This document shows, piece after piece, positions 33,245 to 52,309 of a stretch of 64,000 nt of DNA. The translations under genes were made by a program, and so were the position numbers. The stretch comes from Geoalkalibacter subterraneus (GTDB lineage Bacteria > Desulfobacterota > Desulfuromonadia > Desulfuromonadales > Geoalkalibacteraceae). The notes beneath the pieces were generated by a model. It searched no databases. It was not told the DNA's origin and worked only from the letters and a program-made list of their open reading frames with translations. Each line of letters opens with the position of its first letter. Position 1 is the first letter of the stretch. The stretch is from positions 1,550,001 to 1,614,000 of the forward strand of contig NZ_CP010311.1 of assembly GCF_000827125.1 (NCBI RefSeq), written 5' to 3'.

Positions 33245-33261
33245 CTGGCACGCGGGGTGCA
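33245..33261 (+). promoter_or_regulatory. Sigma-54 (RpoN) promoter before the NHL-OmcS genes
   Basis: CTGGCACG-N4-GTGCA fits the -24/-12 consensus with GG and GC 12 bases apart; the only departure is G for T in the -12 box. The 180 bases upstream (33061-33244) hold no gene; an inverted TGGGT...ACCCA pair near 33105-33124 could be an enhancer-protein site. Transcription would begin near 33272. Confidence 0.7.
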
Positions 33262-33355
33262 CTAGGAGGTGCCCGGAACGAACGAATGCAATCAGGACCG
33301 GTGGCACGCACGCTCTTCACCACCCGGACAACAAAAATTGGGGATGGCGACCAGG

Positions 33356-34390
33356 ATGAACACACAGCACCGCAGAAAACTTGCTTCAAACCCCGGACCG
33401 ATGCTGTCGGCCCTGGTGCTGGTGCTCTCATCGCTGCTGGCCTCCACGGCGTGCGCCGGTGTTGAAGCCGCCTTTGCCTACAAGCTCTCTGACTTTTCAG
33501 GCCCGGTGCCTTCCCTGTGGGCCAAGGTGGATGTGGACAGCCGCTTTGATGAGGCCTATGCCCTCAATATCGGAGATGGCTTGATCCAGATCTACAACGA
33601 ATCTGCCATGCAGGTGCACAGCTACGGTGAAGATTACGGGCTGGCCTCGGCGGTCGACCTGGCCGTAGCCGAGGAGGGCGAGGTGTACGTGCTCTTCTCC
33701 CGCCGAACCTCCGGTCAGCTGCTGCGGCTTGATTACCGGGGCGAGTTGATCGAGCCCGTGACGATTACCGATGTGCCGGAAGAGTATCTTCCTCTCCACC
33801 CGACCTTCATGGACTACCGTGACGGTGAAATTTACCTGGCAGACAGCCGGAGCATGACGATGGTGGTGGTCGACCTGGAAGGGCGCTTTCAGCGCGGACT
33901 CGATCTGCGCAGCTTTCTTCTCTCGGCCTCGCAGGAAGAACTCAATCGGGATGATCTGCGCGAGTCGCAGCGCAGGATGATCGAGGAAGAAATCGAATCT
34001 CTCAAACAGGCCGCGCTGGGTGGCTTCAGCGTCGACGCCCGCGACCAGATCTATTTTACCGTGCCGACCCTGTTCAGCGCCTACCGCATGCAGCCCGACG
34101 GCCAGTTCGAGGTGTTCGGCACTTCCGGCGGCGCCAGGGGCAAGTTTGGGGTTGTGGCCGGCATCGAGGCTGATGAGCACGGCAATATCTATGTCGCCGA
34201 CCGTCTTCGCAGCGTGGTGTTGATTTTCGACGATGAATTCAATTTTCAGACCGAAATGGGTTATCGCGGCGGCGCCCCCCACAACCTGGTGGTGCCCGAT
34301 GACCTGGCGGTCGACGCCCGCAACAACAAGCTCTATGTGTCGCAGGCGGCCAATCTCGGTGTCAGCGTTTTCAAGCTCCGCTTCAACTGA
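33356..34390 (+). CDS. Exported NHL/beta-propeller repeat protein (OmcS-locus type)
   Basis: 344 residues from the ATG at 33356; ATG 33344 is an alternative. A signal peptide ends near STACA. The body is a beta-propeller with repeated units such as EEGEVYVLFSRRTSGQLLRLDYRGE, YRDGEIYLADSRSMTMVVVD-type strands and DEHGNIYVADRLRSVVLIF. An acidic helical insert (SQEELNRDDLRESQRR) lies near residue 205. In Geobacter sulfurreducens an NHL-repeat gene also precedes omcS (recalled, not checked). Probably a periplasmic or surface scaffold. First gene after the sigma-54 promoter. Confidence 0.8.
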   Translation: MNTQHRRKLASNPGPMLSALVLVLSSLLASTACAGVEAAFAYKLSDFSGPVPSLWAKVDVDSRFDEAYALNIGDGLIQIYNESAMQVHSYGEDYGLASAVDLAVAEEGEVYVLFSRRTSGQLLRLDYRGELIEPVTITDVPEEYLPLHPTFMDYRDGEIYLADSRSMTMVVVDLEGRFQRGLDLRSFLLSASQEELNRDDLRESQRRMIEEEIESLKQAALGGFSVDARDQIYFTVPTLFSAYRMQPDGQFEVFGTSGGARGKFGVVAGIEADEHGNIYVADRLRSVVLIFDDEFNFQTEMGYRGGAPHNLVVPDDLAVDARNNKLYVSQAANLGVSVFKLRFN

Positions 34391-34526
34391 GCGGGAAGCG
34401 CGGTCACTGGAGAAATGAAGAAGAGACAAACAGATTTCGATCCGGAGAGGAGGTGAGGGTCAAAGGTAATCAAGGATCATGGCAACACCCTGTCACGGGT
34501 CTTCCGGAACTGCCAACGGAAGCCCA

Positions 34527-34608
34527 CATTCTCCGTAAAGGGTAAACTCATCGCAAGGTGGGGACACAAAGCCTACGGGTCCCACAGGGACGGCCGGGTT
34601 GTCGGAGT
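34527..34608 (+). promoter_or_regulatory. GEMM-I riboswitch (cyclic dinucleotide) in front of the OmcS-like gene
   Basis: The core reads GGGTAAACTC, then a stem closed by the GCAA tetraloop (34553-34556), GGGGACACAAAGCC, and a second stem ending GGCCGGGTT. A closing helix CTCCG/CGGAG brackets it. This matches the GEMM-I pattern, with AAAGGGTAAAC aligned to the Vc2 region that contacts the ligand. The position I align with Vc2 G20 is G, which would favour c-di-GMP over cGAMP, but my alignment is by eye. GAATTTT and AAAATTC downstream can pair just before the GGAGG ribosome site, a plausible expression platform. Confidence 0.85.
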
Positions 34609-34643
34609 GAATTTTCCCCAAAAAAATTCGGAGGATGTACAAA

Positions 34644-35849
34644 ATGAAGAAGTTTTTCACTGTTTCACTTGCGGTTGCCGGCGCTCTGCTGCTCGTCAGC
34701 GGCTCGGCCTTTGCCTTCCACGGCGGCGGTGTCGGGCATTGCGATGGCTGCCACACCATGCACAATTCGCCGACGGATAACGGCGCTCCCCCTGGCACGC
34801 CTGGTCCTTCCCTGCAAAAAGGCTCCGACAACAGCTCAACCTGCCTTAACTGCCATAATGGCGCCGATCGCTACCATGTCAACAGCGCCGACGGCAGCAA
34901 CACCAACGAAGGCGGAGATTTTCATTGGGTCAACGATAATGGGTATGCCTTCCAGGTTCGCCCGGGTGTTTTCAAAACTGTTGATTACAATAATTTAGGA
35001 CATAGTGTTGTCGCAGCAGATTTTGGTATGTCTGCTGATGAAAACTTGACTACTGCACCGGGCGGTTCTTTCCTGGCGGCTGAGTTGGGTTGCTCCAGCT
35101 GCCATGACCCCCATGGTCAGGCTCAGGGCGGCACCATCGGTGGCGCTGCGCCGATTTCGGTGTCCGGTTCCTATGGCGAGGTGCCGCCTGAAGGCACCAT
35201 CGCCGGTAACTACCGCCTTCTGTATGACAGCAACAAGGTGGGCTTCAGTGAAGATGCTCCCATCGCCCGCGCCAGCGGCTATGATGGTAAATCAACTCAG
35301 TATGGTTCCGGCATGAGCGGCTGGTGCGCCAACTGCCATGGGCAATTTTATTCCCAGAGCGCTTCCGGCGGCATGCACCCCACTGATGTGTCTGTACCTA
35401 CGGTCTACAACAGCTATGTGGCAACCGGTAATTTCACCGGCGACATTTCCAGCGCGTATGATCCGTTGGTCCCCATCGAGCGCGGCGTGACCACCGGTTC
35501 CTGGGATCTGCCCTCTCCTGGTTACGATAGTGAAACTGGGCAAGCTTTAGAGGCAGCCGCGACGGCTGGTGTCGACGGCAGCTCCCAGGTGATGTGCCTC
35601 TCCTGCCACCGCGCCCATGCGTCAGCTTTTGACAATGCTCTGCGCTGGGATTACACCACCAGTGAGTTCATTGCCGAAAGTTGGATGTACAAGCCTCAAA
35701 CAGGAACCCCTGTGGCAGAAACTGCCGCGCCTTACTACAAGCATGGTGAGGCAATCGACGTTGCCGATCCCGGCAGTGGCAATCCCTTCACCGATGGTTA
35801 CGGCGAATATCAGCGTTCGCTGTGCAACAAGTGCCACGTGCAGGACTGA
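34644..35849 (+). CDS. omcS: OmcS-like hexaheme c-type cytochrome (filament-forming type), paralogue 1
   Basis: 401 residues from the ATG at 34644, nine bases after GGAGG. Signal peptide ends at AFA. Six CxxCH sites: CDGCH, CLNCH, CSSCH, CANCH, CLSCH, CNKCH. The mature start FHGGGVGHCDGCHTMHNS and the end YQRSLCNKCHVQD match G. sulfurreducens OmcS closely in pattern. The His in TMHNS (mature residue 16) corresponds to the OmcS residue that ligates a heme of the neighbouring filament subunit. Likely an extracellular electron-conducting filament. Controlled by the GEMM element just upstream and ended by a strong terminator. Confidence 0.88.
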   Translation: MKKFFTVSLAVAGALLLVSGSAFAFHGGGVGHCDGCHTMHNSPTDNGAPPGTPGPSLQKGSDNSSTCLNCHNGADRYHVNSADGSNTNEGGDFHWVNDNGYAFQVRPGVFKTVDYNNLGHSVVAADFGMSADENLTTAPGGSFLAAELGCSSCHDPHGQAQGGTIGGAAPISVSGSYGEVPPEGTIAGNYRLLYDSNKVGFSEDAPIARASGYDGKSTQYGSGMSGWCANCHGQFYSQSASGGMHPTDVSVPTVYNSYVATGNFTGDISSAYDPLVPIERGVTTGSWDLPSPGYDSETGQALEAAATAGVDGSSQVMCLSCHRAHASAFDNALRWDYTTSEFIAESWMYKPQTGTPVAETAAPYYKHGEAIDVADPGSGNPFTDGYGEYQRSLCNKCHVQD

Positions 35850-35898
35850 TCCTCAGCTGAACACTCAAAGCTGTTAAAATTCTGTTATGCCTGATTTT

Positions 35899-35936
35899 CG
35901 GGCCGGCGGTTGTACACCACCGCCGGCCCTTTTTCG
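35899..35936 (+). terminator. Terminator after OmcS-like paralogue 1
   Basis: GGGCCGGCGGT pairs with ACCGCCGGCCC around a short loop and is followed by five T. It isolates the first OmcS-like gene from the rest of the locus. Confidence 0.9.
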
Positions 35937-36023
35937 GCCTGCACTTCTCTTTTGTTGAATCCTGAAATGATCGAGCGCCCAAACCCGGAGAGTTATAATG
36001 AAAATTAATTTCGGGAGTTCCTT

Positions 36024-37298
36024 ATGAGGCGTGATGGTTGCATTAATAAGTCAAGATTTCTGACACGCAACCGGGGGATTGATCGTTTGCGACTTCAGAT
36101 AGGCATAGGAACGAGATGGGCGTGGCGCTTTGTTCTGCTGCTGGCGCTGTCCACAGGCAGTCAGATCGCGGTATCTGCGGTTGAAGCTGCGTCTTTTCAC
36201 CGTGGCGGGGTCGGCAACTGCGGCGGGTGCCATACCATGCACAATTCGGAGGGCGGCTTGTCGATTCGCTCCGGTGCCACGGTCAGCCTGCTGCGTGCTT
36301 CCGATCCCGGTTCCATCTGCCTCAACTGCCATGCCGGCGCCGGTGGGCCTGCCAGCCCTTCGGTCTTCAGTTTCGACGGGTCGGCCCTGACCCCGGGGGG
36401 CGACTTTTACTGGGTGACCCGCACCTTCAGTTGGAATGGCGGCACCAGCCCGGCCGAACAGCACGGTCACAACGTGATCGCCCGCGATTTCAACCTCTCG
36501 GCCGACCCTCAGCGTATTTCTTCTCCCGGCGGCAGCTATCCTGCCTCTCAACTGTCCTGCATCAGTTGCCATGATCCTCATGGCGGTCTTTCGCAATCAG
36601 CATCGAATGGTCTCCCGGTCTCCGTCTCCGGTTCCTATGGCGAGCCGATTGCGGCCGGAACGGTGGGCGGCAACTATCGGCTCCTGGGCGATTCAAGCTA
36701 CGCCGTTCGCGGCTATTCCTTCAGGGAGGATGCACCCATTGCCCGGCAGAACCCTTCGCGCCCCTTCGTCGAATCCGATGATTCCCATGTGGACTACGGT
36801 TCGGGCATGAGCGAGTGGTGCGGCAACTGTCATAGACGCATGGTCACCAGCAAACATAATTCAGGGGGCGGGCCGGGCTTCCGTCATCCTTCAGGTAGCC
36901 AGACCCGTTTCGATCAACAGACTCTGTCCCGCTACAATGCCTACATCCGCAGCGGCGACCTGTCCGGTACCGCCGATTCCTCTTACCTGCAATTTACCCC
37001 GTTTGAGCGGGGGATCAGTGACCCGCAGCTGCTTGACCCGACCAGTACCCGCGGACCCGACGCCAATTCCAACGTGATGTGCCTGACCTGCCATCGTGCC
37101 CATGCTTCGGCTTTCCCCTATGCCGGACGCTGGGATTTCACTGCCAACCTGCTGGCTGATTCACACCCCGCGTTGGGGGATGGCGGCGCAAGTGCGAGCG
37201 ATGTGTCCAACAGTTATTATGGGCGGGATATTGGGTTTGAGTTTGGAGCGGATCAGGGGTCGTTTTGCGGGAAGTGTCATGAAGGGGGGGGGAAGTGA
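36024..37298 (+). CDS. OmcS-like hexaheme c-type cytochrome, paralogue 2
   Basis: 424 residues with a long basic leader before a signal peptide ending near VEAAS. Six CxxCH sites: CGGCH, CLNCH, CISCH, CGNCH, CLTCH, CGKCH. The mature start FHRGGVGNCGGCHTMHNS keeps the inter-subunit His. CHDPHGG and CHRAHASAF are shared with OmcS; the C-terminus ends CGKCHEGGGK rather than the usual CNKCH end. GGGAG precedes the ATG. The stop overlaps the start of the next gene, so it begins a long operon. Confidence 0.85.
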   Translation: MRRDGCINKSRFLTRNRGIDRLRLQIGIGTRWAWRFVLLLALSTGSQIAVSAVEAASFHRGGVGNCGGCHTMHNSEGGLSIRSGATVSLLRASDPGSICLNCHAGAGGPASPSVFSFDGSALTPGGDFYWVTRTFSWNGGTSPAEQHGHNVIARDFNLSADPQRISSPGGSYPASQLSCISCHDPHGGLSQSASNGLPVSVSGSYGEPIAAGTVGGNYRLLGDSSYAVRGYSFREDAPIARQNPSRPFVESDDSHVDYGSGMSEWCGNCHRRMVTSKHNSGGGPGFRHPSGSQTRFDQQTLSRYNAYIRSGDLSGTADSSYLQFTPFERGISDPQLLDPTSTRGPDANSNVMCLTCHRAHASAFPYAGRWDFTANLLADSHPALGDGGASASDVSNSYYGRDIGFEFGADQGSFCGKCHEGGGK

Positions 37299-38785
37299 TG
37301 ATGAGGGACGCGGGACGCGGGACGCGGGACGCGGAAAACCCGAGGCTTTGGGCTTTGGGCTTTGGGCTTGGGGGGAGAGGCCGAATTTCTTGGCTTTTCT
37401 GGGTGATGGTGCCTGTATTGCTGCTGGCTGGCTGTTCTTTGCCCTCTCGGCCGGTGCCGGTTGTGCGTGATCCGGGGGCGGGGGTGCGGGTTTATCTGCA
37501 GCCTTTGCCGCAGGAAACTCATCGCTTGAAGTTCGTGATTTCTTCGATCACCGCGCGGCGTGCGGATGGGGGGGAGGTTGCTCTCCTGGACGATCCGAGA
37601 GAGATTCGTCCTGACGATTTGATCGGGCATCAGCACCGCCTGGTGGCCGCTAATCTTCCACCGGGCGATTACCTTGGGCTGAATCTGCAGATCGAGGATG
37701 CGACCCTGATGACCGACGAGGGGGAGAACGATCTGCTGGTCCCGGAGGAACCGATTGCCATCGATGAGGCGTTTCGCGTCCGTGCCGACCAGACGACGGC
37801 TTTGTTCCTGTCTCTCTCACCCGACCGGATCGTTACGGCCGGCTACCGTTTTACGCCGCGTTTTTCTTTATGGGGTTCGCGTCCCGTATTGCCCGGTCTC
37901 AAGGGTGTGGTGACCAACAATGCCGCCGGGACCCTGACCCTGTTTGAAAAGAAGACCCCGACGGTGACCAACGTTGTGGCATTGGGGCGCGGGCCGGGGG
38001 AGGTGGTCTTCGACGCGGCTCGCTCACGCGCCTACATCGCTTTGTCCGGAGAGGATGCCGTTGCCGTATTCGACCTGGTCAACGAGTCCGTGCGGGCCAT
38101 GATCACCCTGCGCCCCGGTGACGGGCCTGTTGAAATGGCTCTCTCCCCGGATGGCAGCATCCTGGTCAGCGCCAACGCCGGATCGCGCAGCATCAGCGTG
38201 ATCGATGCCGTTTCGTTCGTGGAGCGTGAACGTCTGCTGCTCAACGACCGCCCCTCCTCGGTCTTCTTTGATCCGCAAGGGGAAAGGGCCTACGTCCTTC
38301 AGGAATCATCCGGCATGCTGACTCACGTCGACGCGCACCAGGGGCGGATCATCGACACCGTGCACCTGGAAGAATCCCCCGTGCGCGGGGCGGTCAGCGA
38401 TGATGGGAAGGCTCTTTACCTCATCACCGCCGATTCGGCCGACCTGCTGGTGGTGAATGCCGCGACGCTCAGGGTTCAGGGGCGCAAGTATGTGGGGCAC
38501 GGGGCGCTGTGTATTGAAGTCGATCCTTTTGATGGACTGATCTACGTCGGGTTGAGCAGTGGCGACGTGATGGTTCTCGATCCCGGCTTCGATCTGCCGG
38601 TGGACACCTTATCCACCTCCGGCGGGGTTGCCTATCTTTCTCTGGATACTGAGGAAAACACCCTGTTCGCCCTGATCCCCGAGCACAGGCGCCTTGAAAA
38701 GTTCGACCTGGTCAGCAAGAAGCTGCTGGGGGCGATCGAGGTGGATGAAGGAGGCTATGCCGTTTCCGTGACAGGTGAGCGGTAA
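37298..38785 (+). CDS. Beta-propeller lipoprotein of the cytochrome locus
   Basis: 495 residues from the ATG at 37298, which overlaps the upstream stop. The lipobox LLLAGC is near residue 46, after an unusual leader coded by heptanucleotide repeats. Residues 60-190 are a beta-rich domain (LKFVISSITARRADGG). From about residue 210 there are YVTN-type propeller blades (GEVVFDAARSRAYIALSGED, ALSPDGSILVSANAGSRSIS). Probably anchored to the outer membrane and placed next to the barrel and cytochromes. A downstream start near 37406 would avoid the repeats. Confidence 0.75.
   Translation: MMRDAGRGTRDAENPRLWALGFGLGGRGRISWLFWVMVPVLLLAGCSLPSRPVPVVRDPGAGVRVYLQPLPQETHRLKFVISSITARRADGGEVALLDDPREIRPDDLIGHQHRLVAANLPPGDYLGLNLQIEDATLMTDEGENDLLVPEEPIAIDEAFRVRADQTTALFLSLSPDRIVTAGYRFTPRFSLWGSRPVLPGLKGVVTNNAAGTLTLFEKKTPTVTNVVALGRGPGEVVFDAARSRAYIALSGEDAVAVFDLVNESVRAMITLRPGDGPVEMALSPDGSILVSANAGSRSISVIDAVSFVERERLLLNDRPSSVFFDPQGERAYVLQESSGMLTHVDAHQGRIIDTVHLEESPVRGAVSDDGKALYLITADSADLLVVNAATLRVQGRKYVGHGALCIEVDPFDGLIYVGLSSGDVMVLDPGFDLPVDTLSTSGGVAYLSLDTEENTLFALIPEHRRLEKFDLVSKKLLGAIEVDEGGYAVSVTGER
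37305..37367. repeat. Two heptanucleotide arrays in the 5' end of the lipoprotein gene
   Basis: (GGGACGC)4 at 37305-37332, then (TTTGGGC)3 at 37347-37367. Both lie in the coding sequence just after the start. A change of one unit would shift the frame. Confidence 0.9.
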
Positions 38786-38788
38786 ACG

Positions 38789-40945
38789 ATGATGCAGCCC
38801 GGCCTTATCGCATGCTCGGTGTTGTGTTTCGCGGCGATGATGCTGACGCCTCTGTCGGCGGTTGCCGATATTCGGCTGATGGGCGATTGGACCTGGTCTT
38901 ACAGTGAATCGGACACCACGCGCCTTGAGACGAATGAAAAAACGCAGAGCGACAGCCGCCGCTTTCGCCAGTTGTACCGCGCCGATCTCAGTCGCCAGGT
39001 CTACCCGACCCTGCTGGTCAATGGCGGCATCCTGTTCGAAAGAAGCGATCTTGATAGTGACATCGACGGACAAAGCACTGACACGACGGGAGAACTGCTG
39101 CGCCCCTATGTCGATGTCGAACTCGGTAACGACCTCTACACCCTGGCGGGAGGGTACCGGGAGAGCGAGACAACCCGCTCCGGCACCGGCCTTGAGACCA
39201 GCAAGCAATTTGTCGAGGAATACGACGCCCGCGCCGAGTGGAGACCGGTGGATCTGCCCGGCATTGAGACCACCTACACCCGTACCCTGCGAAACAGCGA
39301 TCCGGAAACGACCGACCAGGAATCCCATTTTTATCGGACCACGGTTGATTATGCCTATCGCAATTACGAATTTCTCTACAATTACATGCGCAGCGACGAC
39401 GAACAGAAAACCGAAGATACCCGCACCCGCACCCTGACGCAGACGCACAACGGTCGGGTGCGCTATTCGCGCGGATTTTTCGACAATCGCCTCACACTCA
39501 ATGCGCGGGTGCAGGCCGAGCGGTCGACGGTGGAGTTTTCCGGGACAGGTGAACGGATTGTTCCGACCACCTCATCCGGCAGTTCCTTTTATATTAAAGA
39601 AGATCTTGCCCCTGACAGCAACCTCCCCGACGACTTTACCTCGGATGCCGAGGGGCCACTCTCCGAAGTGGACCTGGGAGGCGGCGGCAGCGGGAATCGG
39701 GTCAGTATCGGTATTGCTTATGCGGAGGAGGTGGAAATAGATCGTCTGCGCGTCTTCCTTGCCCCAGGGCTTGATGTTTATGAAATCGACCGGATTGAAA
39801 ACAAATGGAAATGGGAAATTTACATCAGCGATGACCAGCTTAACTGGACATCGGTTCCGGTCACGGCAAGCGACTACGACCCGGTCGATAATTATTTCGA
39901 GATCCGCTTTGCGCGACAGCAGGAGGTCCAATACATCAAGGTCGTCACCAGCGCAGTTCTGCGCGATCCGGTGACCCAGCTCCCGCTCGACTCGATTCCA
40001 GTCTCCAGGATCGCCGGATTTTTCGCCCTGGCCCCCGATGACGACGACGAGATCGTCTCCATCTCCCGCAACCTCAATTTTGGGGTTGGGTGGAAGATGA
40101 CCGACAAGACGCGGGTCGGCTATGACCTGGCTTATCAGGACCAGGAGGTTGATGCGTTCGATATCGAGAACCGGCAGATGTCCAATATCTTCAACATCAG
40201 CCATATCATCAACCAGGTCTTTTCAACCTCGGCCCGTTTTCTGCGCAACGACCGCTGGCGCAACGGCGATCACGATTTCGAGTCGCACCAGTTTACCGCC
40301 CAGATGAGCGCACGTTGGCTTGAGACCCTGCGGCAGAGCCTGACCTACAGCGGACAGCGCGTCGACGAAGACGAAGGGCGCAGCACCAGCCATGCCGTTT
40401 TCCTGCGCACTAATGCGGAACTCTACCGCGGCTGGGATGTGGCTTTCGACCAGGGCTACACCTGGCAGGATCAGGCCGAACAGGGGGAGATGGAGAGTTT
40501 TTTCGTGCGGGTGGCCAACAGCATCGTGCCGCATCGGCGCTTGAATTTCATCGTCGACTACTCCGTGCGCTGGACCCGGCAGGAAGAGCGCGACAACCGG
40601 CAGGACCAGACCGGGCGGGTGCGTGCCTTCTGGACGCCCACCGACACCCTGTCGCTCAACGGGGAATATAAAATTCGTGATACGGACCTTGAAACCTTTT
40701 CCGAATGGGAGTTCGGCGCAGGCTGGCTGCCGTTGCGCGACGGAACCCTGCAGCTCAACCTGCGCTACAGCGAAGAAGGGGATTCGGACGACGAGCGGCT
40801 GCGGAGCTTTTCGCCCAGCCTGACCTGGGCGCTGGCCCGCAACACCGACCTGACCCTGACCTATACCCTGGGGCGCAACAAGGATCGCGTTGAAGAGGTG
40901 GACTACCAATCCTTTCAAGCCAATCTGCGCTTTTATTATAACTGA
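38789..40945 (+). CDS. Outer-membrane beta-barrel porin-like protein of the cytochrome locus
   Basis: 718 residues, signal peptide ending near SAVADI. Long runs of amphipathic strands with conserved spacing (RQLYRADLSRQVYPTLLVNGG, DYAYRNYEFLYNYMRS, LSLNGEYKIRDTDLETFSEW) suggest 20 or more barrel strands. Between residues 305 and 395 sits a segment that resembles a discoidin (F5/8C) domain (WEIYISDDQLNWTSVPV, VQYIKVVTSA), probably a surface loop. It is in the place where MtrB/OmbB-type porins are found in electron conduits, but I see no clear sequence match to those. No heme sites. Confidence 0.72.
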   Translation: MMQPGLIACSVLCFAAMMLTPLSAVADIRLMGDWTWSYSESDTTRLETNEKTQSDSRRFRQLYRADLSRQVYPTLLVNGGILFERSDLDSDIDGQSTDTTGELLRPYVDVELGNDLYTLAGGYRESETTRSGTGLETSKQFVEEYDARAEWRPVDLPGIETTYTRTLRNSDPETTDQESHFYRTTVDYAYRNYEFLYNYMRSDDEQKTEDTRTRTLTQTHNGRVRYSRGFFDNRLTLNARVQAERSTVEFSGTGERIVPTTSSGSSFYIKEDLAPDSNLPDDFTSDAEGPLSEVDLGGGGSGNRVSIGIAYAEEVEIDRLRVFLAPGLDVYEIDRIENKWKWEIYISDDQLNWTSVPVTASDYDPVDNYFEIRFARQQEVQYIKVVTSAVLRDPVTQLPLDSIPVSRIAGFFALAPDDDDEIVSISRNLNFGVGWKMTDKTRVGYDLAYQDQEVDAFDIENRQMSNIFNISHIINQVFSTSARFLRNDRWRNGDHDFESHQFTAQMSARWLETLRQSLTYSGQRVDEDEGRSTSHAVFLRTNAELYRGWDVAFDQGYTWQDQAEQGEMESFFVRVANSIVPHRRLNFIVDYSVRWTRQEERDNRQDQTGRVRAFWTPTDTLSLNGEYKIRDTDLETFSEWEFGAGWLPLRDGTLQLNLRYSEEGDSDDERLRSFSPSLTWALARNTDLTLTYTLGRNKDRVEEVDYQSFQANLRFYYN

Positions 40946-40979
40946 TCTCACTGAGCAAAGCATACGCAAGGGGACGCTT

Positions 40980-42756: not shown

Positions 42757-42784
42757 GTTTTACCTACATCAGCAAGGAGTTGTC

Positions 42785-44800: not shown

Positions 44801-44872
44801 TGGAAAGCACAGTGACTGCAAGGTCGACTTCTGTTGCTCAACAGTAGGCTTTTCTCAAGTGAGGTCGCTATC

Positions 44873-46852
44873 ATGTTGCATGGATCGGAAAAAAAAGTCT
44901 GTGTATTAAGCCTGGCATTGATCCTGATGCTTGGCACGGTTATGGGTTGGAGCGGTTCTGCCGATGCGGCTAAAAGAGGCTTTGCCCGGCAGGGCTGCAT
45001 CGACTGCCATCAGGATTTTGAAAAAGAATATCTGGATAAGAAAAATGTCCATCCGGTGGTCAAGGAGCTGAAGTGCGAAGAATGCCATCTGCCCCATGGC
45101 ATCGTCCCGAAACTGCTGATGAAGGAATCGGGCAGTAAGCTCTGCTTCACCTGCCATGATCGGGAGAAGATGGGGATGAAAGAAAAGGTGGTGCATGGCG
45201 CTCTGCGCAGTGGAGAATGCAGCAGCTGCCATGACCCCCATGCCTCGGACCACGGCGCGTTGCTGAAAGCGCAGGGGAAGGAGGTCTGCTTCAGCTGCCA
45301 TGATCGGACCCCTTACGAGCGCAGGAATGTGCATGCGGTGATTGAGGAAACGGGCTGCAATGCCTGCCATAAGCCCCATGCTGCGTCCCAGCTGGATCTG
45401 CTGACCCTGGAGGCGGTCGAGCTTTGCCTCTCCTGTCACGACAAGGGTAAATCCTCCTTCCAGAAAAGCCATGGCGGATACCCGGTCGACCAGAGGTCGT
45501 GTACCGTCTGCCATGATCCCCATTCATCCGAACAGAGCGTGCTGCTCAAAAGCAGTATTCACTCACCGACCGCCGAAGCCATGTGCGATGCCTGTCATAA
45601 TCCCCCTGCCTCTGCCGAACCTTTCGGTGTCACGCAGAGCGGCGAAGGGTTGTGCATGGGCTGTCACGACGCTGAAGAGGTGGAGGGGGCCGACGCGGTC
45701 AAGCATGCGCCTTTCGAAGGCGGAGAATGCCTGAGTTGTCACGACCCCCATGTGTCGGATCACCCCACTCTGCTGGCCGCGACCGGCAATGACCTGTGCT
45801 TCGGCTGCCACGATGACAAAAGCGGCACCAGGCGCTACCCCCATGCGCCGGTTCAGTCCGAACGCGGCTGCCTCTCCTGTCACGGCGCCCATTCGGCCGA
45901 AAAACCCGGTCTGGTGGATAAGAGCGACGGCGACCTGTGCTACGAATGTCATTCCGGCGTGAAGGATGATCTGGCCAAGCTTAACCAGACCCATGCACCG
46001 GTGGATGATGATATGTGCGTCACCTGCCACAACCCGCACGGCTCAAGCGCGAGCGGCATGCTCGACGGCCGCGCGGACCTGATCTGTTACCAGTGCCACG
46101 CGGAGCTGGAGAGCGAATATGTTCAGCGCGTGGTTCACCAGCCGGTGCGGTCCGGCAGCTGCACCACCTGTCATAATGGCCACGGCGGGAGTGACCGCAG
46201 TTTTCTGAAGGCTCAAGGAGCTGAATTGTGTGCAGATTGCCACGGCTCCATGCTGGAAACCGGTCGTGGCGAGAACCTGCATGAACCCTTTGCCGACAAC
46301 GACTGCATGACCTGTCACGATCCCCATGCCAGCCGTCACCAGGGGATGCTGAGTCAGGAGCAGGGAGCGCTCTGCGCCGAATGTCATTTTGATATGGAAG
46401 ACGGATTCGTCCAGGCGCGAAGCACTCATCAGCCTGCTGCCGAGGGCGAGTGCAGCAAGTGCCACAACCCGCACAAGGCGGCGTTGGAGACCCTGCTGCG
46501 GGCACCGGGCGTCGATCTGTGCCTGGGCTGTCATACGGACATGAAGGAGAAATTCGCTTCGCAGCGTGTGCATTCGCCTGCGGACCGCGATTGCCTGCAG
46601 TGCCACAAGCCCCATTACGCTGCGGAACCTTCATTGACCAACGAGCCGCTCCATCAACTGTGCGGGCAGTGCCATGAACCGGATTCCGAATCTTTCAGCC
46701 GGGGGCATATCGGGATCAAGGCCGCTGACATGAACTGCAATTCCTGTCACAACCCGCATGCATCCAAAGACCCGAATTATTTCAAGGATGTCATGCACGC
46801 ACCCTTTGCGGCCGGCTCCTGCGAACCCTGCCATGTTGTCGAGAAGCAGTGA
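44873..46852 (+). CDS. 26-heme c-type cytochrome
   Basis: 659 residues from the ATG at 44873, nine bases after GAGG. Signal peptide ends near GSADA. I count 26 CxxCH sites from GCIDCH to SCEPCH, spaced about every 25 residues, many in the form CHDPHAS or CHNPHG. This is the repeated doubled-CxxCH cytochrome type. It has no membrane anchor, so it is probably periplasmic or surface. Eleven bases separate it from the 16-heme gene. A 26-heme cytochrome is also known from the omcS neighbourhood of G. sulfurreducens (recalled). Confidence 0.93.
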   Translation: MLHGSEKKVCVLSLALILMLGTVMGWSGSADAAKRGFARQGCIDCHQDFEKEYLDKKNVHPVVKELKCEECHLPHGIVPKLLMKESGSKLCFTCHDREKMGMKEKVVHGALRSGECSSCHDPHASDHGALLKAQGKEVCFSCHDRTPYERRNVHAVIEETGCNACHKPHAASQLDLLTLEAVELCLSCHDKGKSSFQKSHGGYPVDQRSCTVCHDPHSSEQSVLLKSSIHSPTAEAMCDACHNPPASAEPFGVTQSGEGLCMGCHDAEEVEGADAVKHAPFEGGECLSCHDPHVSDHPTLLAATGNDLCFGCHDDKSGTRRYPHAPVQSERGCLSCHGAHSAEKPGLVDKSDGDLCYECHSGVKDDLAKLNQTHAPVDDDMCVTCHNPHGSSASGMLDGRADLICYQCHAELESEYVQRVVHQPVRSGSCTTCHNGHGGSDRSFLKAQGAELCADCHGSMLETGRGENLHEPFADNDCMTCHDPHASRHQGMLSQEQGALCAECHFDMEDGFVQARSTHQPAAEGECSKCHNPHKAALETLLRAPGVDLCLGCHTDMKEKFASQRVHSPADRDCLQCHKPHYAAEPSLTNEPLHQLCGQCHEPDSESFSRGHIGIKAADMNCNSCHNPHASKDPNYFKDVMHAPFAAGSCEPCHVVEKQ

Positions 46853-46862
46853 GGTGAACGAC

Positions 46863-48137
46863 ATGAGACTGCATAATCAACGGATATTCATGCTGATTGT
46901 CTTTTTGGCCTCCCTGTCGGTTGCCTCCATGGCCGCTGCACAGGGGAAATTCAAGCTCGCTGAAGGCGCACGCGGCAAGATGTGCCTTGAATGCCATGAG
47001 ACATTCTCGGATGTAATGAAGAAAAAACACATTCATTCCCCGCTGGCTGAAGGCAACTGCACGGGTTGCCACAGCCCCCACACCACTGATCACGGGCGCC
47101 TGATGGCGGCTGATGCCAACAGCATCTGCCAGAGCTGCCACGAGGATATCGTGCCGCAGGATGCCGCAAGCACCCACCAGGTTGTGCTTGAGGGCAACTG
47201 CACCCTGTGTCACGACCCTCATGCCTCCAATAACCGCAACAACCTGATCGAGGCCGGCAGCGCGCTATGCTTCGGCTGCCACGTCGAACTGGGCGAGGAT
47301 ATCGCCGACAACCGCTACCCGCATACGCCGGTGCAGCAGGATTGCCTGACCTGTCATAATCCCCATGCGTCGCAGGACAACGACCATCTGCTAACCGCAA
47401 GTGCCCCGGCCTTGTGTGTGGAGTGCCACGATACGAGCAAGGGAACTTTCAAGGACCTCCACATGGGCTATCCCGTGGAAACGGCGGATTGTTCCTCCTG
47501 CCACAATCCGCATGGCTCCGGGCAGAAGTCGATCCTGCACGACGTGGTGCATGAACCGGTCAGCAACCGCATGTGCAAGCAGTGCCATGACGCGCCGGAT
47601 TCAGCCGAGCCGTTTGCGCTGATCAGAGACAGCTACGAACTCTGCCGGGGCTGCCATTACGACATGGTCAACGAGACCTTCAACCAGGAGCGGATTCACT
47701 GGCCGCTGGTGGATGGCGCCGGCTGCATCAACTGCCATTCGCCCCATGCCTCGTCCGTGACGGGACTGCTCGAAAAGCCGATGCTGGAGCTGTGCGGCAC
47801 GTGCCACGCGGATACCGTTTCGCGCCAGGAGCGATCTCAGACGCCACATCCGCCCATTGCTGAAGGTGAATGCGCGACCTGCCACTCGGTGCACAGCTCC
47901 AACAACATGTTCCTGCTCAACAACGCCTCTTCCTTCGATCTGTGCGGGGAGTGCCACGAATGGCAGACCCACTCGACGCATCCCATCGGCGAAGGCATTG
48001 TCGACCCGCGCAATCGTAATATGGAACTGGACTGCATGAGCTGCCACCGGACTCACGGCACGGAATACAAGCATTTCATCTATTACGAAACCATCAACGA
48101 CCTGTGTGTCCAATGCCACACCAAATATCGGAGGTAA
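46863..48137 (+). CDS. 16-heme c-type cytochrome
   Basis: 424 residues from the ATG at 46863 with GAGGTG upstream. Signal peptide ends near SMAAA. I count 16 CxxCH sites from MCLECH to LCVQCH, in the same doubled-repeat style as the protein before it (CHDPHAS, CHNPHGS). It was probably derived from a common ancestor by repeat duplication. Followed five bases later by an NHL protein. Confidence 0.93.
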   Translation: MRLHNQRIFMLIVFLASLSVASMAAAQGKFKLAEGARGKMCLECHETFSDVMKKKHIHSPLAEGNCTGCHSPHTTDHGRLMAADANSICQSCHEDIVPQDAASTHQVVLEGNCTLCHDPHASNNRNNLIEAGSALCFGCHVELGEDIADNRYPHTPVQQDCLTCHNPHASQDNDHLLTASAPALCVECHDTSKGTFKDLHMGYPVETADCSSCHNPHGSGQKSILHDVVHEPVSNRMCKQCHDAPDSAEPFALIRDSYELCRGCHYDMVNETFNQERIHWPLVDGAGCINCHSPHASSVTGLLEKPMLELCGTCHADTVSRQERSQTPHPPIAEGECATCHSVHSSNNMFLLNNASSFDLCGECHEWQTHSTHPIGEGIVDPRNRNMELDCMSCHRTHGTEYKHFIYYETINDLCVQCHTKYRR

Positions 48138-48142
48138 AGTTC

Positions 48143-49042
48143 ATGAAAGCAGCCCGTTTGATCCTGATCACGGTTTTCGCTCTCCTGGTCGCATTGCCGT
48201 GCTGGTCGTCCGAACAGGTCAGGTTGAAATACGTCGGGACCATCTATACCGATGAATCCGGAGTGCAGTTGAAGTCTCCGGAGGGGGTCACCGTGACTGA
48301 CAACTTCATCTATGTCGCCGACAGCGGAAACCAGCGGATTCTGCGCTATGAACTCAGTGACGGAAGACCTGTGTCGGAAACCATCTTTCCGGTGGCTAAA
48401 TCCTACCCGCTGATGGTGCGCCCCGATTCCAAGGGGAACATGTATGTGCTGGACGGCAAGAATCGCCGGATCGACCTGCTCAGTCCCGAAGGCGCACCCC
48501 GCGGCAGCCTGGACCCCAAGGGCCTGCCTGATGACGGCAAGGTCGTCCCCCGCAGTTTTGCTCTTGGCGGCGACGGAACCATCTACCTGCTCGACATCTT
48601 CTCGCAAAGGGTGTTGGTGCTTGATGGGAGAGGGCAGTTTGTCCGCGGGATCCCGTTTCCCCCCAAGCATGGCTTCTTCTCCGATGTCACGGTGGACCGG
48701 CAGGGCAATGTTTATCTGCTCGACAGCGTCGAAGCGGTTGTTTATCGGGCATTCAAAGGCGAGGAGGAGTTTTCCGCCCTGTCCGAAAGCATGAAGGACC
48801 TCATGAATTTCCCGACCAGCATTGCGGTCGACAATTCAGGGCGCATCTATCTGCTCGATCAGTATGGCAGCGGATTGGCGGTGGTCAGCAGTGATGGGTC
48901 TTTCCTGGGGCATAAACTGTCTATGGGATGGAGTGACGGGATGCTCTATTACCCCTCGCAGATCAGCATCGACCAGGAGGGAAATGTCTTTATCGCCGAC
49001 CGCAACAACAACCGCGTGCAGCATTTTTCCGTGGTGGATTGA
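48143..49042 (+). CDS. Exported NHL-repeat beta-propeller protein
   Basis: 299 residues from the ATG at 48143 with GGAGG upstream. Signal peptide ends near LPCWS. NHL repeats are regular: VTDNFIYVADSGNQRILRYE, DSKGNMYVLDGKNRRIDL, DRQGNVYLLDSVEAVV, DNSGRIYLLDQYGSG and DQEGNVFIADRNNNRVQ. Last gene of the long operon; companion to the NHL protein at 33356 but simpler. Confidence 0.88.
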   Translation: MKAARLILITVFALLVALPCWSSEQVRLKYVGTIYTDESGVQLKSPEGVTVTDNFIYVADSGNQRILRYELSDGRPVSETIFPVAKSYPLMVRPDSKGNMYVLDGKNRRIDLLSPEGAPRGSLDPKGLPDDGKVVPRSFALGGDGTIYLLDIFSQRVLVLDGRGQFVRGIPFPPKHGFFSDVTVDRQGNVYLLDSVEAVVYRAFKGEEEFSALSESMKDLMNFPTSIAVDNSGRIYLLDQYGSGLAVVSSDGSFLGHKLSMGWSDGMLYYPSQISIDQEGNVFIADRNNNRVQHFSVVD

Positions 49043-49117
49043 TTGGTCTCGCTCACCCTCCCTCACCCTCCCTCACCCCCGGCCCGCTGGGGAGAGGGGA
49101 GTATTCAAGGGAGGGGG

Positions 49118-50197
49118 TTAATCCTGGACGTGGCACTTGTTGCAGAGTGAACGCTGGAAGGTGCCGTATCGCATTTCAATGTCGTCGCCGTAGAAAGCCT
49201 GTGCGCTGTCGGCTGAAGAGAAAACCGGCGAATCTGCGATGAACTGCGTCTGGAAATCCCAGCGGCCGATATTGGCGAAGGGTGTGGCGTGGGCGCGGTG
49301 GCAGGTGAGGCACATGACGCGGCTCTGGGAGTCCGGCCCGTGGGTGCTGTAGGGGTCGAGGAGGTTTTCATCCACCCCGCGCTCAAAGGGCACAAAGTGG
49401 TCGTAGGCGCTGTCGGCGCTGCCGGTGAAATCGCCGGTGGCGACGTAGCTGTTGTACAGGTCGGCGTATTGATTGAGGTAGGCGTTGTTGCCTGCCGCGT
49501 GACTGTGCTGGCTCGAATTGGTGTAGCCGACATGGCAGTTGCTGCACCACTCGGACATCCCTTCGCCGTAGTCGGTGTGGCGCTGGTCGGTTTCGGTCGG
49601 CCAGTCGCCGCCCTGGCCGGAATAGGAGACGGCGGTGGGGGAGGGGTTGGGGAAGTAATAACTGACCCCGGCGCGGTTTTCGATCCAGCCGGTAGAGCGC
49701 AGCATCCGGAAGTCATAGCTCGGGTAGCTCAGCCCGTGGGGATCATGGCAGCTGGTGCATTCCAGCCAGTTTGAACTGAAGACACCGCCGCCGCTGCTGG
49801 GGGCCCTGTCCTTGAAGGCGTCGCGGGTCAGACCGTAATCGACAGCGATGATGTTGTGCCCGTGGCTGTCGGCCCGGTCTTCATAGCCGTTTTGGGAATA
49901 TTCGCGGGTCAGCCAGTAGAAATCCCCGCCGGGGGAATGGCCGCCGCCGTTTTCGGTGAGTACGCGATGCGTATCGTCATGGCATCGCAGGCAGGTGGAG
50001 CTGGCGTCACCGCCGAGAAGCCCCAGGGTCGAAGAGGATGTGTCCTCGCCGATGGCGCCGTGGCACCCGCGGCAGTAATCACCGCCACCCCAATGAAAGG
50101 CATCTGCGTCTGAAGAAAATAGACAAAATCCCAGACAGAGCATTGCTGAGAAGAAAAGAACGGAACTTCTCCGGTGCTTCAGAGCTGTCATCATCAT
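49118..50197 (-). CDS. OmcS-like hexaheme c-type cytochrome, paralogue 3 (lacks the bridging His)
   Basis: 359 residues on the minus strand, converging with the operon. Signal peptide ends near SDADA. Six CxxCH sites: CRGCH, CLRCH, CTSCH, CSNCH, CLTCH, CNKCH. The end FQRSLCNKCHVQD matches paralogue 1. The mature start FHWGGGDYCRGCHGAIGED has Ile where OmcS, paralogue 1 and paralogue 2 have the TMH histidine. Own promoter region; the sequence TTGGCAAACGCCAA at about 50244-50257 is a palindrome upstream. Confidence 0.88.
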   Translation of the reverse strand: MMMTALKHRRSSVLFFSAMLCLGFCLFSSDADAFHWGGGDYCRGCHGAIGEDTSSSTLGLLGGDASSTCLRCHDDTHRVLTENGGGHSPGGDFYWLTREYSQNGYEDRADSHGHNIIAVDYGLTRDAFKDRAPSSGGGVFSSNWLECTSCHDPHGLSYPSYDFRMLRSTGWIENRAGVSYYFPNPSPTAVSYSGQGGDWPTETDQRHTDYGEGMSEWCSNCHVGYTNSSQHSHAAGNNAYLNQYADLYNSYVATGDFTGSADSAYDHFVPFERGVDENLLDPYSTHGPDSQSRVMCLTCHRAHATPFANIGRWDFQTQFIADSPVFSSADSAQAFYGDDIEMRYGTFQRSLCNKCHVQD

Positions 50198-50330
50198 CCC
50201 CCCATGCTTGGTTGTGACACCCTATTAAATAACATTAAGATTGGCGTTTGCCAAGGAAAAAGTTAAATAAATTTTAAAATATGGCTATCTATCTAATTTT
50301 TCTATTTGAAATCTCCCCGGAAGATGCGTG

Positions 50331-51152
50331 ATGTCTGACTGTGTCGGGAAAAAATGTGCGACATCCCTCTTGATTTTGAGCCTTTTGCTCTTCTCTGCAA
50401 TTCTCGCAAGAGGGGAATCGGTCATGGACGTCTCCCCCCGACCCATGACGACGGCCCAGTGCGGGAGTTGCCATCCGGGCCAGTTTTCCGATCTGAAAGC
50501 CCGCGGCGGCGGGCATCGCCTCGACTGCCGCCAGTGTCACGAAGTTTTTCATGTCCCGCGGCGCAGCGAAGACGAATTTGTCAATCGAATGCCACGCTGT
50601 GCCGGATGTCATGGGCATCCCCATGAAAATATCGAGATGCCCTGCTTCTCATGCCACCGCAACGCCCATGCGCCGACGGTGCCAATTAAAAACGATCTGT
50701 TGAAAGACACCTGCCAACAATGTCATCCGCAAGCCGCGGGGATCTTGAATGAAGGCTCAAACGCCCACGGCGCAATGAGTTGCGACGCCTGTCACATTGA
50801 AGAACATAGAATGATTCCAGATTGTTTCCAGTGTCACGTTCCCCATTATCCTTCTCAGGATAAAGAACAATGCATGAACTGCCACCAGCCGCACCGCCCT
50901 CGAAGCGGTGAGTTGCCCATCGCTGCTGATACGCAGTCCTGCAAGAGTTGTCACAGCTCGGTTTACGCCGTATGGGCAAGAACTCCCAGCCGACACGGAG
51001 ACTGGGCCTGTTCCGTCTGTCATGTCCGTCACGGGGAGGCGCTGGCCTGCCGCGACTGCCATGATCCGCCGCATGAGACTGCCATGCTGGAAAAATTTAA
51101 AAGGTGCACCGGATGCCATTTCGACCCTCACGATCCCTCGACAACCCGATAA
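50331..51152 (+). CDS. 12-heme c-type cytochrome
   Basis: 273 residues from the ATG at 50331 (GTG at 50328 possible). Signal peptide ends near LARGES. Twelve CxxCH sites: CGSCH, CRQCH, CAGCH, CFSCH, CQQCH, CDACH, CFQCH, CMNCH, CKSCH, CSVCH, CRDCH, CTGCH, closely packed for a small protein. Histidine-rich linkers supply distal ligands. Divergent from OmcS-like paralogue 3 with a 130-base gap. The stop overlaps the next gene by about 40 bases. Confidence 0.9.
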   Translation: MSDCVGKKCATSLLILSLLLFSAILARGESVMDVSPRPMTTAQCGSCHPGQFSDLKARGGGHRLDCRQCHEVFHVPRRSEDEFVNRMPRCAGCHGHPHENIEMPCFSCHRNAHAPTVPIKNDLLKDTCQQCHPQAAGILNEGSNAHGAMSCDACHIEEHRMIPDCFQCHVPHYPSQDKEQCMNCHQPHRPRSGELPIAADTQSCKSCHSSVYAVWARTPSRHGDWACSVCHVRHGEALACRDCHDPPHETAMLEKFKRCTGCHFDPHDPSTTR

Positions 51153-52309
51153 AGAAGACTCTCCAGGTGGTGCGGATTCTGTCGGCCCTGGTCTTTTTCT
51201 GCGTCCTGTGTCTTTCCACGTCCAATGCCGTGGCGGAAGATCTGGAGGAGGTCCGGCGCATGGCTGAGCACGGCAGCCACCCCTTTCAGCTGCGCTTGTG
51301 GGAGGTCTATTCCCGGGGTGAAGGGGTCGCGCGCGATGAACAGCAGGCCATGCGGTGGCTGACAAGGGCCGCCGAGGGCGGATATGGACCCGCGCAGAAC
51401 GTCCTGGGTGTTTACACCCTCGAACATGCACGCTACCGCAGCGATATTGAGCGCGCCAGGCATTGGCTGGAAAAAGCGGCAGCAAACCGGCAGGCGGAAG
51501 CTCAGTATGGGCTGGGACTTCTCTACCTGGAAGGTGCTCAGGGCCTGCGCGCCGACATTAACAACGCCCTGCACTGGCTGCAGATGGCGGCAGACGCAGG
51601 CTATGGCGATGCCCTGTATGTCCTGGGATGGATATACGAAAAAGGACGTGGTGTTGAGGTGGACAGAGAGCGGGCATTTGAATTGTTCTCAGCCGCTGCC
51701 CGGAAAAATCACCCAGGCGCCACGCACCAGATGGGGCGCATCGCGCTGGAGCAGGACGCTCCAGATGCTGCAGCACAAGCTCTGGCATGGTTTCAGCGCG
51801 CCGCCGATTCGGGAGAGGCGGATGCCCTGAACGACCTGGCGGTGCTTTTCCTTCGGCACCAGGGCCGCATTGGCGAACAATCGGCGAGTCGGGATCTTAT
51901 CCTCTCCTGGCTGCGTCAGGCGGCCAAAGCTGATAGCGATGTGGCTTCGTATAACCTGTGGCGCCTTTATGTCCGCGGCATGATAACGCCCTCAAGCGAA
52001 AAAGAGCTTGTTCAGTGGCTGCATACCGCAGCCCGCCAGGGAGAGAGCGGCGCACAGCGGCAGCTGGGGTGCCTGTGGCGTGAATGCGCGGTTTTCCCTC
52101 AGCATGTGAGTGACTACGGCTGTCGCCGGATGGCGGATTACTGGCTGGCGTTGGCGGAGGGAGAAAAGACCTTGCAGTCGCTGGCTGAGCCCCAGCCGGA
52201 ATGTACCACCCCGACCGCCCCCGGGGGAGAAGTTGAGGAGGGTGAACTGGAGCAGGTGGCGGAAGACTCAGTGGTTTTCAGCTTTTCGATGAAGAGTAGC
52301 TTTGAATAG
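51113..52309 (+). CDS. Sel1-repeat (SLR) exported protein
   Basis: 398 residues from the ATG at 51113, coupled to the 12-heme gene by overlap. A hydrophobic N-terminal segment (VVRILSALVFFCVLCLST) precedes at least seven Sel1 repeats: AMRWLTRAAEGGYGPAQNVL, ALHWLQMAADAGYGDALYVL, AFELFSAAARKNHPGATHQM and similar. Such solenoids bind other proteins. Likely a periplasmic adaptor for the cytochrome encoded before it. The 3' end overlaps the convergent response regulator gene by 32 bases. Confidence 0.85.
   Translation: MPFRPSRSLDNPIKKTLQVVRILSALVFFCVLCLSTSNAVAEDLEEVRRMAEHGSHPFQLRLWEVYSRGEGVARDEQQAMRWLTRAAEGGYGPAQNVLGVYTLEHARYRSDIERARHWLEKAAANRQAEAQYGLGLLYLEGAQGLRADINNALHWLQMAADAGYGDALYVLGWIYEKGRGVEVDRERAFELFSAAARKNHPGATHQMGRIALEQDAPDAAAQALAWFQRAADSGEADALNDLAVLFLRHQGRIGEQSASRDLILSWLRQAAKADSDVASYNLWRLYVRGMITPSSEKELVQWLHTAARQGESGAQRQLGCLWRECAVFPQHVSDYGCRRMADYWLALAEGEKTLQSLAEPQPECTTPTAPGGEVEEGELEQVAEDSVVFSFSMKSSFE

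Follow-up and report, generated by a model that had tools for sequence, protein, structure and literature searches.

An osc-type locus in Geoalkalibacter subterraneus, its hexahemes with and without the inter-subunit heme ligand, and a second divergent cluster in the same genome

The stretch analysed here (the window) is 64 kb of the 3.7 Mb genome of Geoalkalibacter subterraneus (NZ_CP010311.1, 1,550,001-1,614,000). Judged from its sequence, the run of genes at window positions 33269-49042 is a relative of the osc (omcS companion) cluster, and its core is an ordinary member of that published system. We consider it likely, with a probability of about 0.8, that this is an osc-type locus whose products fold, export and maintain filaments of OmcS-family cytochromes, working as proposed below. 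Gene content, gene order, co-occurrence, predicted folds, the heme-ligand pattern and the riboswitch were computed directly; the features, in window coordinates, are as follows.

33269..34390, + strand: NHL/6-bladed beta-propeller protein, first gene of the cluster (Pfam DUF5128/NHL; relatives in the equivalent place)
34531..34606, + strand: c-di-GMP-I (GEMM-I) riboswitch aptamer (Rfam RF01051)
34635..35849, + strand: OmcS-like 1, hexaheme, predicted filament subunit (OmcS 6EF8 match, 6 CXXCH)
36024..37298, + strand: OmcS-like 2, hexaheme in the OscC (GSU2501) place, predicted filament subunit (OmcS 6EF8 match, 6 CXXCH)
37295..38785, + strand: OscD-like beta-propeller lipoprotein (Pfam/NCBIfam propeller matches, lipobox by eye, equivalent place in relatives)
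38789..40945, + strand: OscE-like predicted outer-membrane barrel, 718 residues (AlphaFold2, Foldseek)
40890..41558, start probably near 40980, + strand: OscF-like lipoprotein with one GNA1162-type domain (Pfam GNA1162-like)
41530..42756, + strand: OscG-like protein with two predicted tandem PelC/GNA1162-type domains (AlphaFold2, Foldseek)
42785..44800, + strand: OscH-like chaperone with two PpiC-type stretches (Pfam Rotamase_2, two stretches, E 3e-16)
44834..46852, + strand: OscI-like 26-heme cytochrome (26 CXXCH; DmsE-type decaheme model over cut-off)
46758..48137, start probably near 46863, + strand: OscJ-like 16-heme cytochrome (16 CXXCH; 3' of the 26-heme gene in relatives)
48104..49042, start probably near 48143, + strand: second NHL protein, last gene of the conserved block (Pfam NHL; equivalent place in relatives)
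49118..50197, - strand: OmcS-like 3, putative donor-less hexaheme (OmcS 6EF8 match, 6 CXXCH; without only the His16 equivalent)
50328..51152, + strand: 12-heme cytochrome, divergent from OmcS-like 3 (12 CXXCH)
51104..52309, + strand: Sel1-repeat protein, link to the cluster uncertain (Pfam Sel1, E 1e-32)

The heme counts (6, 6, 26, 16, 6 and 12 CXXCH), gene sizes and order that an earlier note had read from this DNA alone were confirmed, its 718-residue open reading frame (ORF) being the barrel, and the two NHL proteins, double-PpiC protein, Sel1 protein and propeller lipoprotein that it named all gave Pfam or NCBIfam matches (Pfam scans of window proteins used a threshold of E 0.01). The start estimates for OscF, OscJ and the second NHL gene were made by eye, as the first-start ORFs there begin too early. 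In the OscD-like protein (37295-38785) the propeller was weak in Pfam and an NCBIfam beta-propeller repeat exceeded its cut-off; the start of its gene is overlapped by the end of OmcS-like 2 (36024-37298 against 37295). The OscF-like protein shares 42-66% identity with 21 relatives.

A conserved relative of the osc cluster

The window agrees with osc in order, size and heme number. Its block runs propeller, barrel, OscF, OscG, PpiC chaperone, 26-heme, 16-heme and NHL, which is the osc order, and an OscC-type hexaheme lies immediately 5' of the eight genes in the window and in relatives. Passages of PMC12977616 describe a block of eight genes (GSU2500-2493) that lies 3' of the GSU2501 hexaheme, give GSU2495 as the 26-heme protein, and report the GSU2501 hexaheme in 12 of 12 genomes with the block, with OmcS not in all of them. 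In passages of PMC13194489, oscC is GSU2501, oscI is GSU2495 and oscJ is GSU2494, and the roles, cited from Shen et al. 2025, are OmcS folding for OscH, secretion for OscE, OscF and OscG, and morphology for OscD. The dense grouping set out in the earlier note is thus not new, being already described in these two sources, so far as the passages go, both as the osc cluster and for the roles of OscD to OscH. The G. sulfurreducens cluster (GSU2504-2493), as these passages give it, has in common with the window the hexahemes followed by propeller, barrel, OscF, OscG, PpiC chaperone, 26-heme and 16-heme genes, and a riboswitch for the hexaheme operon; the window differs in that its hexahemes lie on another branch than OmcS and in having a third, His16-less hexaheme with 12-heme and Sel1 genes downstream. 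The mapping was made by order, size and heme number, without comparison to GSU sequences, and a match to the GSU2493 product is not part of it. One relative shared by both is Citrifermentans bremense (L107; L and G numbers are our handles for loci and genomes), a species for which the block is listed in the relevant passage of PMC12977616.

Co-occurrence was examined in two samples, 277 genomes of the class, which gave 47 class loci, and named genomes scanned with an OscF alignment, which gave 70 loci. The cut-offs in the class were E up to 1e-30 for OscH and up to 1e-20 for the OmcS-type hexaheme, with at most six hexaheme candidates scored per genome, so that copy numbers are lower bounds. 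OscH was present in 46 of the 277 genomes and the hexaheme in 51, with both in 44; in the two genomes with OscH only (G053 and G134) the contigs that carry the locus are short, and a hexaheme match without OscH was found in seven. The named loci come from Desulfuromonadales, Geobacterales, Anaeromyxobacter, Nitrospirae, Acidobacteria, Rokubacteria and others, and also from Schekmanbacteria, Krumholzibacteria, Calditrichaeota and Planctomycetota. Where these had OscE, OscG, OscH and the 26-heme gene (or a fused 42-heme gene), a hexaheme accompanied them in 54 of 59 cases; four of the five without one begin inside the cluster, and L143 has no six-heme gene upstream. These counts, in which the set does occur together across genomes, support the earlier note in its reading of a filament locus of OmcS type that brings together a chaperone, a barrel and accessory parts of the outer membrane.

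All six of OscD, OscE, OscG, OscH, the 25/26-heme gene and the 16-heme gene were found in 40 of the 47 class loci, every time (40/40) in the gene order of the window, and in 52 of the 70 named loci, 50 of them in that gene order (the exceptions are L141 and L145); the remaining loci were mostly cut by contig ends or rearranged. Marker content and order conserved to this degree argue that the arrangement is not chance. L114 and L159 each have a single 42-heme gene of ~1060 residues in place of separate 26-heme and 16-heme genes, a fusion which suggests that the pair works as one unit. As a separate observation, the OscH-like protein of the window has ~130 additional N-terminal residues, which by eye resemble a repeat of the stretch that follows, and near-full matches to it occur in only four other class genomes (G107, G108, G074 and G089).

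Heme ligands of the hexahemes

All three window hexahemes match OmcS (6EF8): OmcS-like 1 at E 8e-52 (residues 28-404), OmcS-like 2 at E 4e-73 and OmcS-like 3 at E 1e-39. We take the inter-subunit donor of OmcS to be His16. According to passages of PMC6584659 and PMC12203936, eleven of the 12 axial histidines of OmcS belong to the same subunit as the heme, and the remaining one, which ligates heme 505, is supplied by a neighbouring subunit. OmcS-like 1 and 2, known here from their genes, share with the OmcS filament (PDB 6EF8, 6NEF) the six CXXCH motifs and all 12 of the ligand histidines, His16 included, whereas OmcS-like 3 has isoleucine at position 16 and histidine at the other eleven. Thus the three OmcS-like hexahemes of the earlier note do have six CXXCH each but are not equivalent, the third being without the inter-subunit ligand.

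This difference recurs across genomes. In a class set of 85 rows, including the window's three (exactly six CXXCH, 300-560 residues, other heme numbers excluded), the eleven other ligand positions are histidine in 85/85, and position 16 is histidine in 27/27 first-place, 37/37 OscC-place and 9/21 downstream hexahemes. A named set of 98 rows (six CXXCH, 280-720 residues, a hidden Markov model score >60 bits, other heme numbers excluded) gave histidine at position 16 in 81/81 upstream rows, including 49/49 in the OscC place, and in 11/17 downstream rows, with the other eleven kept in 98/98. The named and class loci overlap in species, so the two sets are not independent. When unlinked and edge copies were added to the class, giving 120 rows from 48 of the 51 genomes with a hexaheme (rows of G026, G230 and G231 are absent), 84 had all twelve ligands, 34 were without only His16 and two were pieces cut by contig ends (L218 and L228, excluded from trees).

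Trees point to more than one origin. A set of 169 rows was made up of OmcS, 118 class rows and 50 rows picked by hand from the named loci, of which 33 out of 70 are represented, so as to limit species repetition; 35 of the 169 are without exactly His16 and none is without any other ligand. The tree of this set, with segment 14-46 excluded, needs four changes at position 16, at least three of them forced by well supported branches, and a 119-row tree needs three. These patterns suggest that the His16-less hexahemes are a class of donor-less subunits of repeated origin, apparently new to print within the searches made. No published account of the class was found by title or abstract start, though Shen et al. 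2025 and Wang et al. 2019 may hold one, and none of the sought terms is present in PMC11936953. Strict OmcS orthology of the window hexahemes was also considered, and it is ruled out by an unrooted tree in which a branch with a Shimodaira-Hasegawa-like approximate likelihood ratio test support of 100 separates them from OmcS; L072, a row from the window's taxonomic order, falls on the OmcS side. Within L104, the protein most similar to OmcS-like 3 (41%) is likewise without His16 and has its own riboswitch directly upstream. Two His16-less relatives, in L209 and L210, have an extra N-terminal heme motif, seven in all.

To see where the protein had changed, positions conserved in at least 80% of His16 rows were compared in two His16-less clades and the window protein. 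The clades keep 0.82-1.00 of these positions per segment outside 14-46 and only 0.26 and 0.41 inside it; OmcS-like 3 keeps 0.44 in 14-46, 0.61 in 151-238 and 0.83-1.00 elsewhere. V6, M15, H16, N17, S18 and L37 fall below half in both clades and in OmcS-like 3, while in the heme 5 segment (328-345) the clades retain 0.98-1.00 of the conserved positions and OmcS-like 3 retains 0.90. With the heme 5 segment kept and the donor arm lost, such a protein could accept a neighbour's His16 and would have none to donate, and OmcS-like 3 might then serve as the end-piece of a chain or as a base adaptor. A replacement ligand was sought among gained His, Met, Lys or Cys columns in 12 rows; Met37 (8/12) and His255 (6/12) were the candidates, and both were rejected because neither covers the class.

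We regard the end-piece or adaptor role as less likely than not, and rank above it, at roughly even odds, the alternative that the His16-less hexahemes are monomeric cytochromes, either soluble carriers or open-heme enzymes, which departed from the filament after duplication. Some His16-less copies lie away from the cluster, the whole of segment 14-46 is eroded as it would be under relaxed selection, the heme 5 motif is required for heme binding in any case, and the two relatives with seven motifs also suit a monomer. It is harder to explain on this account why every loss hit the identical ligand, for which 12 rows examined offered no consistent replacement, or why at least one His16-less copy is kept in 28 of 30 class genomes outside the window's taxonomic order (120-row set). 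Inside that order, however, only 1 of 17 genomes, the window's own, has such a copy, so an end-piece would not be universal; outside it, G140 and G162 have none and G145 only a truncated piece. The end-piece role also has to contend with the His16 kept in downstream hexahemes (9/21 and 11/17) and with L207, which has His16 and sits among His16-less rows in the 119-row tree.

The pattern bears on two questions that the literature leaves standing. Whether the OscC-type hexaheme GSU2501 makes a wire is a question that PMC12977616 does not decide in the relevant passage, and the 2025 review PMC12307469 calls OmcS nanowire secretion and membrane anchoring still speculative, with little known of assembly. 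Hexahemes in the OscC place have the inter-subunit ligand in all rows examined and should therefore be capable of polymerising; the His16-less paralogues should not, and may cap. The ligand pattern makes both questions testable.

Outer-membrane parts, riboswitch and proposed working

AlphaFold2 predicted the OscE-like protein as a large beta-barrel (mean predicted local distance difference test score, pLDDT, 88) of about 26-28 long strands; eleven long strands lie ahead of a beta-rich insert (residues ~256-414), which is discoidin-like by eye and without Pfam support, and seventeen follow it. Its top Foldseek match was MtrB of the Mtr complex (6r2q_B; E 4e-10, template modelling score 0.36-0.39), and in a second structural comparison many large barrels were tied in Z. 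No MtrB_PioB family match was found in Pfam at E 0.01, leaving a likeness of fold only; the model indicates a wide, MtrB-like barrel. The OscG-like model (mean pLDDT 86) has two tandem alpha/beta domains, for which Foldseek placed PelC (5t10) and GNA1162 (4hrv) ahead of LpoB, TolB and CsgG (4uv2), among others; the protein (41530-42756) has no Pfam match at E 0.01 and, by eye, no lipobox in the window. Although it shares the alpha/beta core of the CsgG curli exporter, a lower-ranked match, its model is without membrane-spanning hairpins, and a CsgG-type pore for OscG was ruled out on this basis. With PelC and GNA1162 nearer, what we picture is a barrel above PelC-like domains. The exopolysaccharide exit PelBC (PelC 5t10, PelBC 9h80) has in common with this picture the PelC-type domains, here in OscG, and a nearby outer-membrane barrel; it differs in that OscG carries two PelC-type domains and OscE has no PelB match among the matches listed.

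The two proteins that the earlier note had called GNA1162/CsgG-like lipoproteins therefore fared differently, the OscF-like one having its GNA1162-like Pfam match and the OscG-like one having neither lipobox nor Pfam match and being of PelC/GNA1162 rather than CsgG type. Of its exporter candidates, the barrel stays a putative one, in line with the published secretion role of OscE, OscF and OscG in the passages cited above, but OscG is not supported as a CsgG-type pore; the structure predictions it had proposed, made on single chains, gave the OscE barrel and no pore for OscG. Two side observations concern OscG. Its relatives in L102 (the same as L054), L114, L147, L042, L043, L051, L052 and L044 have tandem Ig-like repeats before the core and are 760 to 1442 residues long; Pfam scans of L102 and L114 gave Big_13 and Y_Y_Y, and the window OscG is without such repeats. 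In L132 and L138 an ORF of ~1000 residues, membrane/spermidine-synthase-like by eye, lies between OscF and OscG.

The barrel also raises the prospect of an Mtr-like conduit, in which it and the 26- and 16-heme proteins would cross the outer membrane, the hexahemes would be outer terminal cytochromes, and export would take place elsewhere. MtrCAB shares with the window not only the top match of OscE, which also had the lowest root mean square deviation among the matches listed with at least 350 aligned residues, but the DmsE-type matches in OscI (over the cut-off) and OscJ (below it), the pair that is fused in two loci. It differs, however, in heme number (10, against 26 and 16 in the window proteins) as well as in the absent Pfam match. 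OscF, OscG and the chaperone are retained along with the barrel, OscE, OscF and OscG are tied to OmcS secretion in the work cited by passages of PMC13194489, and the tie in Z leaves MtrB as one of many large barrels. We think this conduit rather unlikely, though conduit and export roles could coexist.

The riboswitch (34531-34606), which is absent from the earlier note, scored 55.6 bits against RF01051 (gathering cut-off 35) and ends 28 bases 5' of OmcS-like 1. Among relatives, a riboswitch lies ahead of the first hexaheme in 6/14 class loci (L042, L043, L044, L045, L081 and L084) and in 4 of 7 named loci (L092, L094, L095 and L114), L092 and L044 being the same organism; the L104 stretch stops short of the first hexaheme. 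At model position 11 the alignments show, by eye, a G for the window and for L042 and L043, an A for L044, L045 and L084, and a C for L081. This position is presumably the G20 of the aptamer, where G20 goes with cyclic di-GMP (c-di-GMP) and A20 with cyclic GMP-AMP (cGAMP). The riboswitch of the G. sulfurreducens OmcST operon is reported, in passages of PMC6456294, to respond to both. Further c-di-GMP-I-GGC riboswitches lie downstream of the osc block at L042:1098-1181 (-) and L043:18825-18903. A response regulator-PAS-GGDEF-EAL protein (52278-54467, -) adjoins the cluster and an HDOD-GAF-histidine kinase (54477-56651, -) lies beside it; these are a possible source or sink of the riboswitch ligand.

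Carrying the published roles over to this organism, we infer the following working. OmcS-like 1 and 2 would each receive six hemes in the periplasm, would be held by the OscH-like PpiC chaperone, and would leave through the wide OscE barrel with the PelC-like domains of OscF and OscG beneath it. Polymerisation would be head to tail, because each subunit would place its His16 on heme 5 of its neighbour. Work at or close to the surface may fall to the NHL proteins and the OscD propeller lipoprotein, the 26- and 16-heme proteins may form one long heme relay feeding the base of the filament, and the c-di-GMP-type riboswitch would set expression of the filament genes. The earlier note had the locus code for the whole route from periplasm to filament; its assembly and export parts correspond to the published osc genes, but the whole route is too strong a claim, as no inner-membrane quinol oxidase or small periplasmic carrier was found among the 15 scanned products from 33269 to 58332.

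Several observations count against this osc-type working. An MtrB-like barrel suits an electron conduit as well as an export pore. The osc identity is drawn from order, size, heme counts and shared relatives, with OmcS as the only G. sulfurreducens sequence compared, and the branch described above splits 26 rows, all of the window's taxonomic order, from OmcS and 59 others with support of 100. Five genomes of the window's own family gave no OscH match, and G017 has a fragmentary OscH, found in an order-only search and not among the 46, with no hexaheme match listed. The riboswitch, finally, is confined to the 6/14 class and 4/7 named loci.

A second osc-type cluster and the neighbouring genes

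Paired-CXXCH matches led to a second, divergent osc-type cluster on contig 1 (2858003-2880778; L232, L233), 1.3 Mb from that of the window. It begins with NHL, 12-heme, barrel and OscF-like genes and an ORF, at most 584 residues long, that matches OscF/OscG weakly, continues with a small OscG-like gene, PpiC chaperone, 26-heme, 16-heme and NHL genes, and ends with five- to eight-heme genes that have an OscD-like gene among them. Identity to the window is 22% for the barrel, 28% for OscF, 33% for the 26-heme and 35% for the 16-heme protein, and the chaperones of the two clusters are linked by a profile match of 87 bits with no blastp match. Stretches from nine other genomes have much the same order (L242, L245 and L246 differ upstream, and some are incomplete). 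In the class the second-cluster chaperone is present in 29 of 277 genomes and its seven-heme partner family in 35, with both in 28, and both osc-type machines occur together in six genomes, one of them G074, Malonomonas rubra.

The five- to eight-heme cargo of this cluster, assigned to the OmcS superfamily, has a histidine three residues after the first CXXCH in 21/21 rows chosen by similarity, as OmcS has at 16; an earlier count of 17/17 was circular, because those rows had been picked by a motif containing the position. The cargo is without a His2 equivalent (0/17) and its third heme motif is unaligned (0/17 at 144), so it is not simply OmcS, and a comparison of two of its proteins with solved structures gave no OmcS match at an E value of 1 or below. 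No published account of the cluster was found by title or abstract start, and PMC12133095 mentions neither PpiC nor 26 heme and, in the passages listed, describes no such cluster. In the literature searched, we found no report of the His16-less class, of its repeated origin or of the second machine. The second cluster is a source of candidate filament proteins. It is conceivable, if on the doubtful side, that nanowires have dedicated end subunits stopping or anchoring one end and that Osc-type machines form a larger family serving several filament kinds; if so, the machinery that assembles several sorts of cytochrome filament is still to be described.

The second cluster also bears on the genes downstream of the window's block. 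OmcS-like 3 is convergent with the second NHL gene and divergent from the 12-heme gene, and with the 12-heme/Sel1 pair it stands outside the co-directional run; the Sel1 protein gave only repeat-level matches to Sel1 proteins near relatives. These features would fit an unrelated neighbouring unit outside the osc-type locus, an account to which we give a low probability because several loci have 12-heme relatives beside their osc genes, with sister loci carrying them upstream of the first NHL gene (27-34% identity) and the second cluster between its NHL and barrel genes (29%, 7e-28), and because a downstream hexaheme is common. On the other side of the cluster, immediately 5' of it, lies a ParE-type toxin gene (32406-32684).

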